From Planctomycetota bacterium (lineage in GTDB: Bacteria > Planctomycetota > Planctomycetia > Pirellulales > Pirellulaceae): 64,000 bases of DNA. This document shows, in pieces, positions 39,584 through 46,553 of the stretch (position 1 is the first letter of the stretch; the number at the start of each line of letters is the position of its first letter). The position numbers and the translations under genes were made by a program. The stretch spans positions 186,001 to 250,000 of the forward strand of contig JABAAE010000003.1 in the NCBI GenBank assembly GCA_014238905.1, in the 5' to 3' direction. Below the pieces are notes generated by a model. The model was given only the letters and a program-made list of their open reading frames with translations, was not told the DNA's origin and made no database searches.

Positions 39584-41041
39584 ATGTCCAATATCGGCGT
39601 AAAACGGTTCGTAGAATTGCTGCAGAAAAGCCGTCTGCTGCCGGACGTCCTCTTACGCAATGCGCTGACACAACTGAAGGATGAGAACGACGGTCAACCA
39701 CTAGCCGACACTAGCTTCGTGACCCAACGTCTGATTGAAATGGAGTTGATCACCAAATGGCAATCCGACAAGCTTCTAAGTCAGAAATATAAAGGCTTCT
39801 TTCTAGGGAAATATAAAATCCTAGAGCATATTGGCACCGGTGGCATGAGTAGTGTTTACCTTGTCGAACACATGCAAATGCGACAGCGGCGAGCCATCAA
39901 AGTCCTGCCACGAAAACGGGTTGCCGACAAAACCTACCTTGAACGATTTTATATTGAGGCCCGCGCTTCTGCTTCGTTGGACCATCCGAATATCGTTCAT
40001 GCATTTGACGTCGATCATGACGAGGACAGCCAAACACACTACTTGATTATGGAGTATGTGGACGGACGGGACGTTGGCAAGATTGTCGAGCAGGATGGCC
40101 AGGTACCCATAAGGGATGCTGCGCGGTACATCGCCCAAGCGGCCGAAGCCTTACAGTTCGCGCACGACGAGGGGGTCATTCACCGGGATGTCAAACCTGG
40201 AAACCTTCTTGTCGACAAAAACAATGTTGTCAAAATTTTAGATATGGGTTTGGCCTTGTTTAAAGAGGACGAGTATTCCCTCACTCTTGAATTTAACGAA
40301 AAGATCCTCGGAACCGCCGACTACCTGGCCCCCGAACAAGCCATTAACAGCCATACGGTAGACCATCGGGCTGACGTCTATGGATTGGGTTGCACATTTT
40401 TTTTCATGTTGGCTGGTGAACCCCCCTTTAACATTGGCTCATTGGCCCAACGCATCGCCATGCATCAATCCAAACATCCCCAGCCGATATCGAAATACCG
40501 GGATGACTGCCCGCCTGAGTTGCAGCAGATCCTGGAAAAGATGATGAAAAAAGACCCGGAGCATCGATTTCAAACCTGTGGCGACGTCAACCGCATTCTA
40601 ATGGCATGGTTAGCCGGACAAAAAATCCAAATCGGATCATCGGCCCAGGTCATTTCAGGTGGCTCTGGAGCCGGAAATTCTGATGTGCTGGAATCGGGGA
40701 TCCACTCCGGTACAGCCAATGCGGAAAATGGCGGAGAATCCTCGTCAGGTTCGATTGATGACACGATTCGCCAATCAGCATCGAGCAGTTCATCCTATTC
40801 CAAAAACGTACTGAATTCTGTTTCGTTTTCGGATATAGTCGCCGGATCAGAAATACAATCCGATACCCCTACCATCGAGCCGAACACGGACTCCCGGAAA
40901 GTCTCGAAGCCTGATAGCAACGTTAAAACGACTATTGGTGTTTCTCCTGTTTTCCTAGTATCGATCGTTCTTCTGTCGGTTTTTGCTTCTTCAGCGTTTA
41001 CCATTCTTATTCTGGACTGGTTACGCATGCTGGGTGGCTAA
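39584..41041 (+). CDS. Receptor-type Ser/Thr protein kinase with a planctomycete N-terminal helical module
   Basis: 485 aa. An N-terminal helical segment (1-75; LLQKSRLLPDVLLRNAL...LADTSFVTQRLIEMELITKWQSDKLL) precedes the kinase domain and is typical of a subset of planctomycete kinases. The kinase domain spans about 76-345: GTGGMSSVYL loop, AIKVL lysine, HRDVKPGN (His200), DMG in place of DFG, and LAPEQA. A Ser/Gly/Asn-rich linker follows (about 360-445), then one C-terminal transmembrane helix (VSIVLLSVFASSAFTILIL), leaving about 6 residues outside, so no real extracytoplasmic sensor exists. Probably a membrane-tethered cytoplasmic kinase; targets unknown. It stands alone between two spacers. 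Confidence 0.9.
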   Translation: MSNIGVKRFVELLQKSRLLPDVLLRNALTQLKDENDGQPLADTSFVTQRLIEMELITKWQSDKLLSQKYKGFFLGKYKILEHIGTGGMSSVYLVEHMQMRQRRAIKVLPRKRVADKTYLERFYIEARASASLDHPNIVHAFDVDHDEDSQTHYLIMEYVDGRDVGKIVEQDGQVPIRDAARYIAQAAEALQFAHDEGVIHRDVKPGNLLVDKNNVVKILDMGLALFKEDEYSLTLEFNEKILGTADYLAPEQAINSHTVDHRADVYGLGCTFFFMLAGEPPFNIGSLAQRIAMHQSKHPQPISKYRDDCPPELQQILEKMMKKDPEHRFQTCGDVNRILMAWLAGQKIQIGSSAQVISGGSGAGNSDVLESGIHSGTANAENGGESSSGSIDDTIRQSASSSSSYSKNVLNSVSFSDIVAGSEIQSDTPTIEPNTDSRKVSKPDSNVKTTIGVSPVFLVSIVLLSVFASSAFTILILDWLRMLGG

Positions 41042-41583: not shown

Positions 41584-43449
41584 GTGCAGTCTTTGAAACC
41601 AATTGCCTGTCTTATTCTGGGGACCAGCTTATCGATTTTTTCTTTCGATAGTGTTTCCGCTCAAACGGCACAACAACGGGCAGCCATCGAAAAAGTAAAT
41701 GCCATGATGCTCCAAGCGGGGCAGCAATACTCCTCAAAAAAGTATTCCGATTGTGCCGCGACCGTGAAGCGAATCCAGGTCGACATCGAAACACTCACCA
41801 TCTCCCGAGATGCAAGAGTGATTCGAGCACTTCGACCGACCTACACTCGACTACAAAAGGCTCACTCCCTGCTGGAACTGGAGGGGTACTCCCTCCCAGC
41901 ACTCAAGCCTCTCAACCCTCCCAAAGGAAAACCTGGCATGCCGCCTACCGGTGTTAGCTTTTCCAAAACAATCGCGCCAATTCTGGTCAACAACTGTGGT
42001 CGATGTCATGTCAATCAGGCTCGAGGCCGGTTTTCGATGGCTACCTATCCGGCTCTGATGAGCGGTCCCAACAATAATCGTGTCATTTTTCCGGGTGATG
42101 CCAGCGGCAGCCGACTGATAGAAGTCCTTGAGGATGGAGAAATGCCGCCAAATGGAAAAATAAAAGATGATGATTTAGCGGCGCTCAAGAAATGGATTGC
42201 CGAAGGCGCTAAATCGGACGCCGAAGACGCAACTGCAAATTTAAACGAGATTGCCAGGGCAGCTGACCCGGACGGGACACCGGCACCCGAAGCCAAAGTG
42301 GTTAAATCCACCGGCAAGGAAACGATCAGCTTTGCTTTCGACATCGCTCCTATCTTTGTCACCAATTGCAATGGCTGCCATTACGACATCCAGAACAACG
42401 CCCGCGGCGGCCTCAATGTTTCGACTTTTCGGCAGTTAATCCGTGGTGGTGATACCGGGCAGGCAATCGTCCAGGGCAAACCAGCCGAAAGCCTTTTGCT
42501 CAAACGGCTGAAAGGTGAAGGTGGAACTCGAATGCCAGCCGGTCGACCTCCGTTGAAGGATGATGAATTAGCCAAAATCGAAAAGTGGATTCTTGAAGGA
42601 GCAACCTTTGACGCCACCGATGATCGGGAAGACATCAAACCGATCTATCAACTTGCCAAAGCAACCCGGTCTACCCATGAGGAGCTAATGAGTGAACGAC
42701 TCGTTTCTTCGAAGAGAAACTGGACGTTATTCATGCCGGGTACCCCGCCGAACAAGGTGGAAACCGACAGCTTTGTGATTTACGGCGACATGTCCGAATC
42801 GGTACTTCAATCCTATGCGAAACTCGCTGAAAAAATCTCTCCCAAAATCAAGAGGACATTTTTAGGCCAAAACGGACCTCTTGTAAAAGGACGAGTCACG
42901 CTGTTTCTGTTTAAGCAACGCTATGACTACAGTGAATTCGGTAAAATGGTGGAGAAACGGGATATTCCAAAAGGATGGAAAGGGCATTTCCGCTATGACG
43001 TGATCAACGCTTACGGTGCCATAATTCTCCCTAGAAATGATGATGATTACTCCGAGGAAGCGTTGTTTGCGCAGCAAATATCTGGTGTTTTGGTTGCAAG
43101 CCTTGGAAAAAACACGCCCTCATGGTTTTCCGAAGGTGCCGCTCGTGTCGTCGCAAAAAAGCTGGATCCAAAAGACCCGCGTATCGACCAATGGAAAGAG
43201 AAACTGGGTATGATTGCCGCCAAAATTCAAACTGGCGATGAGTTCGTTCGAGGTCAGCTTCCACCTGAGGACACCGCTTTGGCGGGCTACGCCTTTGTCC
43301 AGTTTCTGATGAACAATCGGTCTGCTTTTACAAATCTCATTAAAGCGTTGCGGGATGGAAACGATTTTGAAAAAGCTTTTTCGGTTATTTACCGAGGTAC
43401 TCCATCGGAAGTTGCCAAAAAGTGGATGGGCAAGGGACGCGGTAACTGA
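41584..43449 (+). CDS. Exported protein with two PSCyt1-like heme motifs and a degenerate gluzincin-like domain
   Basis: 621 aa, GTG start with CGGGAG at 41572-41577. Signal peptide with a cut after DSVSA. A helical region follows, then two planctomycete cytochrome-type domains with CGRCH (about 138-142) and CNGCH (about 262-266), each followed by the usual GGLNVSTF / ARGRFSMATY and PAGRPPLKDDELAKIEKWI patterns. The C-terminal 230 residues look like the peptidase MA-like/DUF1570 gluzincin fold, ending with PSWFSEGAARVV. At the place of HExxH the sequence is QQISG (in LFAQQISGVLVASLG, about 495-509), so zinc binding and catalysis are probably lost. SEGAA and the overall layout are kept. It may act in binding rather than cleavage. 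Stands alone. Confidence 0.85.
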   Translation: MQSLKPIACLILGTSLSIFSFDSVSAQTAQQRAAIEKVNAMMLQAGQQYSSKKYSDCAATVKRIQVDIETLTISRDARVIRALRPTYTRLQKAHSLLELEGYSLPALKPLNPPKGKPGMPPTGVSFSKTIAPILVNNCGRCHVNQARGRFSMATYPALMSGPNNNRVIFPGDASGSRLIEVLEDGEMPPNGKIKDDDLAALKKWIAEGAKSDAEDATANLNEIARAADPDGTPAPEAKVVKSTGKETISFAFDIAPIFVTNCNGCHYDIQNNARGGLNVSTFRQLIRGGDTGQAIVQGKPAESLLLKRLKGEGGTRMPAGRPPLKDDELAKIEKWILEGATFDATDDREDIKPIYQLAKATRSTHEELMSERLVSSKRNWTLFMPGTPPNKVETDSFVIYGDMSESVLQSYAKLAEKISPKIKRTFLGQNGPLVKGRVTLFLFKQRYDYSEFGKMVEKRDIPKGWKGHFRYDVINAYGAIILPRNDDDYSEEALFAQQISGVLVASLGKNTPSWFSEGAARVVAKKLDPKDPRIDQWKEKLGMIAAKIQTGDEFVRGQLPPEDTALAGYAFVQFLMNNRSAFTNLIKALRDGNDFEKAFSVIYRGTPSEVAKKWMGKGRGN

Positions 43450-43621: not shown

Positions 43622-44722
43622 ATGATATTCGACTGCCATTTGGATCTCGCCATGAATGCGGTTCATTGGAACCGCGATCTGACAAAACCACTAGACCAGA
43701 TTCGATTACGCGAATCAGGAATGGTCGACAAACTCGACCGTGGCAACGGTGTCGTCTGTTTTGAAGAAATGAGCAAAGGGAATATCAGGTTTTGCATTGC
43801 AACGCAAATTGCGCACAGCGTTTCGCAAAACAGCCCATTGCCCGGCTGGAACAGTCCGGAAATTGCCTGGGCTCAAACACAGGCCCAACTCGCCTGGTAT
43901 CGGGCGATGGAAAACAGGGGATCGCTAAAACAGATCACCCAAGCGGCCGATCTTGAATTTCTGCTGAACCACGATCAGGCAAGCTGCCCAATTGGATTCG
44001 TCCTCAGCTTGGAGGGAGCGGATTCCCTTTTGGATTTGAGTTTTCTGGGGCAAGCTTACCAGGATGGGCTGCGAATTGTGGGCCCAGCCCATTACGGTCC
44101 AGGACGATATGCCGCAGGCACCGGCGAGACTGCCGGTTTCACTGAAATCGGTTTTGACCTTTTGAAGGAAATGACTGCACTGAAGATGATTCTCGATGTC
44201 ACGCACCTTACGGATAAGGGGTTCGACCAAGCTCTTGAACAATTTGGTGGACCGCTGATTGCCAGTCATCATAATTGCCGAAAATTAGTCGATCATCAAC
44301 GTCAATTGACCGACCAGCAAATCCGGCAACTATTGGATCGAGGTGCTATTATTGGCGTTGCCTTAGATGCCTGGATGCTGATCCCAAACTGGAAGAGAGG
44401 AGAAACGACACCCGACGAAACGGGGGTTTCCCTCCACAATGTCGCCGATCAGATTGAACACGTTTGCCAGATCGCCGGCAACGCGAATCATTCGGTCATC
44501 GGTTCGGATCTCGACGGAGGATTTGGACATGAGCAAACCCCCAAAGAAGTCACTACCATTTGCAAATTAAATCTCTTGGACGCCATTCTTGAAAAACGGG
44601 GATTTCCAGAAATCGATCGCAAAAAAATTATGCATGCCAATGCCATTGAGTTTTTCCGCCGGCATTTACCCCATCAGTCGTCGGTCAAGACAGGTCCGGG
44701 ATCCACTGATTCAAGCAACTGA
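43622..44722 (+). CDS. Membrane-dipeptidase family protein (peptidase M19)
   Basis: 366 aa. The N-terminal metal-binding HxD is in FDCHLDLAMNAVHW. Further family motifs are GFVLSLEGADSLLD with the bridging Glu, GLRIVGPAHYGPGRYA, LDVTHLTDKGFDQALE and GGPLIASHHNCRK with His ligands, and VIGSDLDGGFG near the end. Renal-dipeptidase homologues cleave dipeptides, and in bacteria often D-amino-acid-containing ones; the substrate here is unknown. No signal peptide is present (MIFDCHLD is the very start), so it is cytoplasmic, unlike the mammalian enzyme. The C-terminus is followed by a small conserved gene 162 bp downstream. Confidence 0.9.
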   Translation: MIFDCHLDLAMNAVHWNRDLTKPLDQIRLRESGMVDKLDRGNGVVCFEEMSKGNIRFCIATQIAHSVSQNSPLPGWNSPEIAWAQTQAQLAWYRAMENRGSLKQITQAADLEFLLNHDQASCPIGFVLSLEGADSLLDLSFLGQAYQDGLRIVGPAHYGPGRYAAGTGETAGFTEIGFDLLKEMTALKMILDVTHLTDKGFDQALEQFGGPLIASHHNCRKLVDHQRQLTDQQIRQLLDRGAIIGVALDAWMLIPNWKRGETTPDETGVSLHNVADQIEHVCQIAGNANHSVIGSDLDGGFGHEQTPKEVTTICKLNLLDAILEKRGFPEIDRKKIMHANAIEFFRRHLPHQSSVKTGPGSTDSSN

Positions 44723-45069: not shown

Positions 45070-45425
45070 ATTCTGTATTTCAGAGTTGGCCCGAGCTGAC
45101 AAATTTCCGTTGATGATTCCGCTAATGGTTGACCTGAATGCCGGCTAATGGCGAGCCAGTCCGATCATCCTCAATTTGATTGCGAATCACCCGTTGGAGT
45201 CGTTTTCACCGCAACCGCAGTAAATTTGGAGCATCGGGTGAAATGGGAAGCAGCCTATTTCATTTCGATTCAAACCGGTGGAGCCACAGACCGAAATGAC
45301 GAAATCGACTCCTTTCCCCAATTTATTGTAGCTATTTTGGATCTACCCACCTCGCGAGTCACGGGATAAACTGTTTGTTAGGCGAGTGTCCATTCAATTA
45401 GTTGTGATTTTCAAGAAGGCGAGTG
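45070..45425 (+). other. Spacer upstream of the EF-hand gene
   Basis: 356 bp. A 73-codon plus-strand ORF (45148-45369) lacks a ribosome-binding site and any recognisable motif; I do not call it a gene. The gene that follows has AGAAGGCGAG just before its ATG. Confidence 0.5.
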
Positions 45426-46553
45426 ATGTCCACAGATAACGATTCTCTGTCCGATTCGGACGCACCGATTGAATCGGATCCCGGTACCCCAGCGGATCCT
45501 TTTTTTGTAACCAGAATGCTAGTCTGGGGGACGATTTTATTTATTGGCGTGGCTGGTTTAGTCTGGGAATACGGGATTGTGCTGCCTGGTTTCAATAACG
45601 CACAAGATAAGCTGACCGAATTATCCGATGACAATATCACCCGCAAGGCTTCAGACGCAGTGACAATGGTTGATGTCAAAAACGTCAAAGCCATCAGTAA
45701 CATGAAGCCCGAGACAACGATTGTAAAACCCGCAAAAAAGAAAAGCGAAGATGACATGTCGATGCGGGCTAGAAATTTCTTTCGAAATGACAAATACACT
45801 TGGCATCATGCGCTTCCCTGGAAAGCTCCAGAAACGATTACCGTCGTCTACAAGCGGCTAATGAAAAACGAGTCTGAGCTCGATTACAAAGAAGAATATT
45901 TTACATCTTTAGAAGACGTTTCAGCTGGTGCAAATGGTGAAAATTTGATCAAGGCTTCAGAATGGAAATTCAGCGCCGTCTATTTCGGTGAAGATCCTCC
46001 TCCGGGTGGTCTTCGCTCGGTCAGCAAGGATGCGGTCAATCCAGGTGATACACCTTCAGCCGCAGGCGCTGGCGGTGGTCGCGGTGGATCTGGCGGGGGA
46101 TCTGGCGGGGGAGCGAGTGGTGGCCGCGGTGGTGCTGGCGGTGGCCGCGGTGGTGCTGGCGGTGGCCGCGGTGGTGCTGGTGCAGCGACTGGTGGTGGCC
46201 GTGGTGGACCGGGTGGTGGTGCTGGCGGCCGGCAGAGAATGGATCCAGATCAACTCTTTGAAGACAACGACAAAAACAAAGATGGCAAACTTTCCGAGGA
46301 GGAGCTGCCCGAACGAATGCGTCAATTCGCTTCCAATATGGATGCCGATGGAGATGGTGCTATCACCAAAGAAGAATTGACAACGGCAATGGAGAATTTT
46401 CGCAACTCAGGTGGCGGGGGAGGACGGTCCAAGTCCGGTGGTCAATCTCGGCCAAAAGCAGAGGATCAAGACAGCCCAAAAAAGGAAGCCAAAGCAGAAG
46501 CGACCAAAGCAGAAGCGACCAAAGAGAAAGCGGTTGAAACTGACAAGAAATAA
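45426..46553 (+). CDS. Membrane-anchored EF-hand protein with a Gly-rich linker
   Basis: 375 aa from the ATG at 45426 (GTG one codon earlier; AGAAGGCGAG upstream). An acidic N-terminus precedes one transmembrane helix (LVWGTILFIGVAGLVWEYGI), then a lysine-rich helical part and a beta-rich segment (WKAPETITVVYKRLM). A long Gly/Arg/Ala-rich linker follows, partly encoded by three 21-bp repeats. Two EF-hand loops follow: DNDKNKDGKLSE and DADGDGAITKEE, both with complete Ca2+-ligand patterns. The tail is charged with a KAEAT repeat. Planctomycete EF-hand proteins are commonly extracytoplasmic; the single TM with a short N-terminus suggests the calcium-binding end is outside. Role unknown. Confidence 0.8.
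   Translation: MSTDNDSLSDSDAPIESDPGTPADPFFVTRMLVWGTILFIGVAGLVWEYGIVLPGFNNAQDKLTELSDDNITRKASDAVTMVDVKNVKAISNMKPETTIVKPAKKKSEDDMSMRARNFFRNDKYTWHHALPWKAPETITVVYKRLMKNESELDYKEEYFTSLEDVSAGANGENLIKASEWKFSAVYFGEDPPPGGLRSVSKDAVNPGDTPSAAGAGGGRGGSGGGSGGGASGGRGGAGGGRGGAGGGRGGAGAATGGGRGGPGGGAGGRQRMDPDQLFEDNDKNKDGKLSEEELPERMRQFASNMDADGDGAITKEELTTAMENFRNSGGGGGRSKSGGQSRPKAEDQDSPKKEAKAEATKAEATKEKAVETDKK
46119..46181 (+). repeat. 21-bp tandem repeat in the Gly-rich linker
   Basis: Three copies of GGTGGCCGCGGTGGTGCTGG(C/T) at 46119, 46140 and 46161, in frame, encoding GGRGGAG units of the EF-hand protein's linker. A shorter 12-bp duplication (GGATCTGGCGGG) precedes it near 46086. Confidence 0.9.

Follow-up and report, generated by a model that had tools for sequence, protein, structure and literature searches.

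A putative diheme cytochrome c of planctomycetes joined to a predicted gluzincin domain that lacks the HExxH motif

Introduction

What does a metalloprotease fold do once its HExxH motif has been lost and it has been joined to two heme domains? This question is raised by an open reading frame in the window, by which we mean the whole stretch of 64,000 nucleotides analysed here, part of a planctomycete genome of 6.1 Mb in 96 contigs. The nearest named relatives are mostly recorded as Pirellulaceae, Planctomycetaceae or Planctomycetota, Pirellulaceae being part of the class Planctomycetia. An initial annotation, made from the sequence, had described two PSCyt1-type CxxCH domains fused to a peptidase fold in which QQISG replaces HExxH, and had suggested a binding or sensor role, or an unusual active site. 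Planctomycetes and related bacteria have many PSCyt proteins, the functions of which were, according to a paper of 2017, entirely unknown (PMC5615132).

Here, we describe a computational analysis of this protein, its relatives and their genomic neighbourhoods. Sequence profiles, structure prediction and a phylogenetic tree support a metalloprotease fold that has lost HExxH and is joined to two heme domains. On the sequences compared, the fusion is an old and constrained pseudopeptidase-cytochrome, not a product of decay.

Results

A putative exported protein with two conserved heme domains

The frame opens with a GTG codon at 41584, preceded by GGGAG read directly from the sequence, and its stop codon ends at 43449 on the forward strand; sequence and translation agree that it is intact (Table 1). 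The product would be exported to the periplasm.

Table 1. Parts of the fusion gene and its upstream kinase neighbour, in window coordinates
Feature	Position	Strand	Basis
Complete gene (621 aa) for the predicted fusion of diheme cytochrome c and pseudo-gluzincin	41584..43449	+	open frame, same-architecture homologues
Likely N-terminal signal peptide, end about ...SVSA-Q	41584..41661	+	translation, by eye
Helical N-terminal region, residues 28-105	41665..41898	+	AlphaFold helices 29-50, 54-71, 77-99
Heme domain 1 (PSCyt1 / class I type), CGRCH 138-142, probable distal Met187	41947..42219	+	Pfam, conservation
Heme domain 2 (PSCyt1), CNGCH 262-266, probable distal Met317	42319..42612	+	Pfam PF07635, conservation
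Predicted pseudo-gluzincin domain, residues about 365-619	42676..43440	+	model mf80304d4a31a, profile matches to intact HExxH homologues
QQISG, residues 497-501, HExxH position	43072..43086	+	alignments with intact homologues
WFSEG, residues 514-518, position of third-ligand motif WxNEG	43123..43137	+	alignments with intact homologues
Residues 442-477: helix, loop and strand with 7 of 10 newly conserved positions	42907..43014	+	column comparison
Ser/Thr protein kinase, 485 aa, upstream recurrent neighbour	39584..41041	+	Pfam Pkinase 5.2e-52

The two PSCyt1-type domains of the initial annotation are borne out by Pfam, in which PSCyt1 (PF07635) matches the protein in two stretches with 61.3 bits against a cut-off of 22. 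In a full-length alignment (A3) of the window protein and 67 of 73 relatives with two CxxCH motifs, Cys138, Cys141, His142 and Met187 of the first domain and Cys262, Cys265, His266 and Met317 of the second are identical in 68 of 68 sequences, a count that is partly due to selection for the heme cysteines and histidines and not so for the two methionines. Six-coordinate hemes with His/Met ligation are typical of electron-carrying cytochromes. Both hemes should, from this conservation, be six-coordinate with His and Met, the methionines being the probable distal ligands, and both CxxCH motifs would carry covalent heme and pass electrons. The presence of the two distal methionines in every aligned protein speaks against a gas-sensing or peroxidase heme. 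In diheme cytochrome c peroxidases and proteins of the MauG type, one heme has an open or non-Met distal site; no such site was found in the 68 proteins, in which Met stands at both MP motifs.

Two hemes are usual in the family and not universal: among 137 inactive open reading frames with CxxCH, 122 have two or more such motifs and 15 have one, some of the latter being shortened by contig ends. An f12 relative with one PSCyt1 domain (L060:1397-3562, minus strand) has an Ada-type zinc-binding match (2.4e-7) at residues 249-296, preceding PSCyt1, which looks as if it replaces one heme domain.

The C-terminal domain is related to gluzincins through its homologues and its predicted fold

The kinship of the C-terminal domain to gluzincins shows through its relatives or its structure and not from the window sequence alone. 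Profile annotation misses the domain in this protein. No Pfam match was returned for the window domain up to E 10, PF13485 (Peptidase_MA_2) included; searched alone, it gave nothing that was accepted from PDB sequences or NCBIfam, flagellinolysin (NCBIfam, only E 0.11) and other weak matches being set aside. A search of 198 genomes of the class returned matches in 131 (E up to 0.01), and 70 loci of this class sample, including the window's own, were read for the motif and used to iterate the HMM. Five homologues without CxxCH carry HETSH or HETAH aligned at QQISG and WxNEG aligned at WFSEG (MAFFT); the four of these that were scanned all match Peptidase_MA_2, with E values of 3.6e-6 to 1.6e-3 and below the curated cut-off.

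Because the iterated HMM contains intact sequences, the fair test is a profile built from 34 inactive domains alone. This profile finds an intact HExxH homologue in genome G061 (E 9e-19), as well as intact homologues outside the class. When the 34 inactive domains were compared with 9 intact ones by hhalign, they aligned with a probability of 99.4% over 247 columns, Q497, Q498 and G501 facing H, E and H, and SEG facing NEG. With E values no higher than 0.1, 10 of these 34 domains also match PF13485, the best at 9.7e-8. When PDB sequences were searched with the profile of intact homologues, the one match was a Grimontia (Vibrio) collagenase (E 0.004), which is of the same family as the best fold match.

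AlphaFold modelled the full-length protein with a mean pLDDT of 90.6 and a pTM of 0.72, at which the relative placing of the domains is uncertain, and the C-terminal domain alone (mf80304d4a31a) with a pLDDT of 95.0 and a pTM of 0.92. The best fold match of the domain is a collagenase (Foldseek 1.9e-4), which we take to be of family M9. By VIA, the domain model matches the collagenase 7wss over 226 residues (Z 14.9, rmsd 4.2), M30 lugdulysin with Z 14.3, and aminopeptidases presumed to be of family M1 with Z of about 12; among the best 50 fold matches listed, Z ranges from 11.6 to 14.9 and identity from 4 to 16%, and TFIID entries are among the matches listed. In the model a helix at residues 491-506 bears QQISG and a helix at 513-527 bears WFSEG, which is the order expected for the two zinc helices. 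The C-terminal domain is thus predicted to have a gluzincin fold; the similarity is strong through the profiles of relatives and through structure, and the placing of QQISG at the HExxH position is supported by the MAFFT alignment, the hhalign comparison and the fold matches of the AlphaFold model, which extend over most of the domain.

Loss of the catalytic motif

Among 160 domain sequences compared, near-copies included, HExxH is present at the site in 15 and absent in 145. It is missing from the site in 137 of the 138 domains that lie in open reading frames with a CxxCH string. The sole candidate for an intact peptidase fused to hemes among the sequences read, L171, was rejected, its CxxCH lying by eye inside a zinc-finger-like cysteine cluster and not in a PSCyt domain. 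In the 137 heme-type inactive domains the first His position is mostly Gln (80) or Glu (37), the motif Glu is mostly Gln (82), and the second His is mostly Gly (58), Ser (46) or Ala (24); His occurs at the first motif position only in L055 and at the fifth in none. An intact HExxH was sought elsewhere as well, and none is present in the window protein, while among the 137 heme-type relatives the string occurs only in L143 and L147, off the active-site column. In these two it reads HEELH and lies near the domain start; a non-heme sequence, L052, has HEREH, also off the column, and such strings would mislead a motif scan.

The WFSEGAA element, which the initial annotation had regarded as kept, is indeed present in the window protein, and its Trp and Gly are found in 137 of 137 heme-type relatives; its acidic residue is less constant in the family, with Glu in 63 and Asp in 32. 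Glu517 of the window protein occupies the third-ligand position and is not informative as a zinc ligand without the His pair. A second change affects column 565, which is Tyr in 15 of 15 intact domains, within WQY in the nine closest intact homologues; a different residue stands there in no fewer than 132 of the 137 inactive heme-type domains (Ala565 in the window protein). This Tyr may be catalytic, and the loss of both HExxH and Tyr speaks against ordinary peptidase activity. A residual or unusual metallopeptidase that uses other residues could draw on Glu517, since an acidic residue is retained there in 95 of the 137; with the motif absent from all 137, the Tyr replaced in nearly all and no HExxH elsewhere in the window protein, we consider such an activity very improbable.

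Newly conserved residues and the pace of change

Conservation has also been gained. Ten positions, R372, W380, G401, R446, E451, E457, R459, P462, H468 and Y477, are at least 80% conserved in inactive domains, in a test that used 82 thinned inactive domains and required the residue to differ from the common residue of the nine closest intact homologues. Two of them, R372 and R459, face a gap in most or all of the nine intact rows and may be insertions or alignment effects. In all 137 domains, for example, E451 is found in 133, R459 in 126 and H468 in 126. Seven of the ten (R446, E451, E457, R459, P462, H468 and Y477) lie within residues 442-477, and the newly conserved residues would line the former cleft. 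The former zinc helix is variable in inactive relatives. Median identity of 67 relatives to the window protein is 30% for the N-terminal region, 53% for each heme domain and 39% for the pseudopeptidase; from these values, the dead domain appears to change faster than the hemes and yet to be constrained. The loss of the motif and of Tyr together with the conservation of new positions points to re-specialisation, not decay.

Two alternatives bear on these residues. The protein could still be an enzyme, either because the newly conserved His, Glu, Arg and Tyr residues make up a site for another metal or substrate in place of the lost zinc site, or through a catalytic heme. The polar residues E451, E457, R459, H468 and Y477 count in favour of the former, and the account of MamO in part of one paper provides a precedent for a dead protease fold that binds a transition metal (PMC4794232). 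This reading is nonetheless rather unlikely, as no known enzymatic signature was found, the former zinc helix varies, and the invariant distal methionines argue against an open, peroxidase-type heme. Alternatively, the domain could be only a structural remnant that stabilises the cytochrome part. Its conservation below that of the heme domains (39% against 53% and 53%) would also fit a mainly structural role, as would the variation of the former active-site helix; the existence of newly conserved positions, and of an inactive clade that lacks CxxCH (below), makes this an improbable account.

Spread and history of the fusion

Of the 70 loci in the class sample, 58 have a heme-type inactive domain; they come from 57 genomes, G102 contributing two. 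The same holds for 79 of the 80 named loci, a figure that reflects selection, since these loci were fetched by likeness to the heme-type inactive form; the search for related loci used an 11-row alignment. A phylum search of 294 genomes with the inactive-only profile gave matches in 65, and the ten loci that were read from outside the class (L171-L180) all have HExxH.

A tree of 104 thinned domains, 82 of them heme-type inactive, was built with the motif columns removed. It contains one change between the intact and inactive states, on a branch with SH-aLRT 69, and several of its deep forks are poorly separated; the heme label needs 4 changes. A single loss of the catalytic motif perhaps occurred, which fits the sequence tree with weak support. 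Six inactive sequences without CxxCH in the open reading frame (families f14 and f17) form a clade with SH-aLRT 99, which suggests that the inactive domain is useful by itself. Eight inactive sequences lack CxxCH in all, and two of these, L051 and L120, extend to contig ends. Four genomes (G061, G079, G081 and G189) contain both an intact paralogue and an inactive fusion, which indicates that the intact gene was not simply replaced.

Genomic neighbourhood

Neighbourhoods were derived from our own longest-ORF calls, not from annotation, for 79 of 81 places including the window; L117 and L119 were left out, the target being masked there by a longer open reading frame on the opposite strand. In 37 of 65 loci, a Ser/Thr kinase belonging to one cluster precedes the target by no more than three genes in the same orientation, and in 26 of 65 it is the direct upstream neighbour; it is downstream in 0 of 72. 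These counts come from 80 named loci and the window, a set rich in Pirellulaceae in which upstream genes were scored if at least 1.5 kb was available, and they are not independent, since related loci, some of them near-copies, are counted together. Kinase and target are often separated by another gene. A comparison of 26 genomes of the family gave 19 with a target match (E up to 1e-60); in 6 of these (G000, G481, G471, G472, G005 and G491) the best kinase match is next to the target, and the kinase is also found in 7 of 7 genomes without a target match. Among 36 loci from other families, 2 (L198, L200) have a kinase of more than 500 bits no more than three genes upstream in the same orientation, and 4 (L181, L184, L186, L217) have a weaker kinase of 246-260 bits upstream; in L181 a strong kinase also lies downstream of the target, in the opposite orientation. 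A further 4 of the 40 loci in this set gave no target, and some have little upstream sequence. The kinase as a universal partner is ruled out by the loci of other families and the 26-genome comparison; the association recurs but does not hold everywhere.

By eye, the window kinase has a hydrophobic C-terminal segment followed by a short tail and no sizeable domain thereafter. About 75 residues before its kinase domain (ending ...KGFFLGKY) also look, by eye, to be shared with target-adjacent kinases elsewhere.

The position of this kinase raises the possibility that the fusion senses redox state or a ligand and passes a signal through the envelope to the kinase, the diheme part reading the periplasmic redox state. 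Such a sensor would suit the placing of the kinase, upstream in 37 of 65 loci and downstream in 0 of 72, and its lack of a sizeable domain after the hydrophobic segment. The 6.1 Mb of genome G000 yield 44 rows of kinase matches, some of which are pieces of the same frame, so an adjacent kinase should be rare by chance. Against this weigh the relatedness of the loci, the frequent intervening gene, the occurrence of the kinase in genomes without the target, its adjacency in only 6 of 19 genomes with it, and its scarcity upstream in other families, and we consider the sensor unlikely. Its more elaborate form, a planctomycete-specific envelope redox pair in which the diheme part reads redox state, the dead domain binds a partner and the neighbouring, C-terminally anchored, sensorless kinase receives the signal, is a shade more doubtful still.

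Several other genes occur near the target. In the window, a gene with a Peptidase_M19 (membrane dipeptidase) match (43622-44722) directly follows it on the same strand, and a glycine-rich protein with EF-hand matches (best 1.9e-9) is encoded further downstream (45423-46553). An oxidoreductase cluster was typed as glycine oxidase ThiO from one member tested (L131); such a gene follows the target in the same orientation at 13 of 18 f13 loci (L182-L186, L188-L190, L193, L194, L217-L219). The named loci contain 19 members of the cluster, and 18 of these are on the opposite strand, upstream of the target in the loci seen.

A small gene with an intact HELGH...RERFAEWFA (L077:3019-3774, L112:3002-3718 and 20 other loci) was considered as the active half of a dead/live pair. 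HELGH is kept in 22 of 22 members of the cluster, and the gene is present in L071, the closest named relative. In 16 of 65 loci it directly precedes the target in the same orientation. It was rejected as a live partner, as it gives only a weak Peptidase_M90 match (E 0.052), has by eye no signal peptide, and was not found in the window's genome in a search run without a positive control.

Discussion

The observations are best explained by an exported diheme electron-transfer or redox protein whose C-terminal gluzincin domain is non-catalytic and has been repurposed for docking or binding, a reading to which we assign a probability of roughly 0.5. Since the fusion recurs in many related bacteria, the dead enzyme fold has probably taken on another role that involves no cleavage, for example the binding of a partner. 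The binding or sensor role suggested in the initial annotation is in this respect plausible on the sequences. The gluzincin domain would no longer cleave peptides and would serve as a docking or binding module, in which a helix (446-455), a loop and a strand (467-471) may form a surface where the cleft used to be, to which a partner, protein or peptide, would bind. By binding it, the domain might bring the hemes to their redox partner, or couple the redox state of the hemes to it.

One recurrent PSCyt architecture thereby gains a concrete partner domain, a peptidase fold whose catalysis was lost perhaps once and which was then re-specialised. The family offers residues to mutate, a frequent kinase neighbour, and a comparison of live and dead forms inside one phylum.

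A fusion of a dead gluzincin with c-type hemes was not found in the titles and abstract starts that searches of open-licence literature listed. The word cytochrome is absent from the main text of PMC10632474 and appears in two passages of PMC8567305, on spectra. Both heme domains of the window protein resemble PSCyt1 (PF07635), whereas published architectures, in the excerpt that lists them, pair PSCyt with PSD, carbohydrate-binding or interaction domains, gluzincin not being among those named. The C-terminal domain shares its fold, whole-domain alignment and WxxxG with PF13485 and the planctomycete HExxH...WxNEG homologues, but the window family lacks HExxH and Tyr and is fused to hemes. It has the predicted fold of the collagenase, lugdulysin and aminopeptidase families, in contrast to which the window protein has no zinc site. 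TAF2, the inactive M1-like part of TFIID, likewise keeps the gluzincin fold without catalysis; unlike the protein described here, it is a eukaryotic transcription factor and has no hemes. Among magnetosome proteins, MamE carries CXXCH motifs. The MamE/MamO/MamP system, as set out in part of one paper, brings protease folds and c-type cytochrome together, and its MamO is a protease fold that has lost catalysis, has been repurposed and binds a transition metal (PMC4794232). That system differs in its trypsin-like fold and in the metal-binding function of its dead domain. By its sequence, the pseudopeptidase-diheme fusion would therefore represent a new combination of known parts, PSCyt domains and inactive gluzincins.
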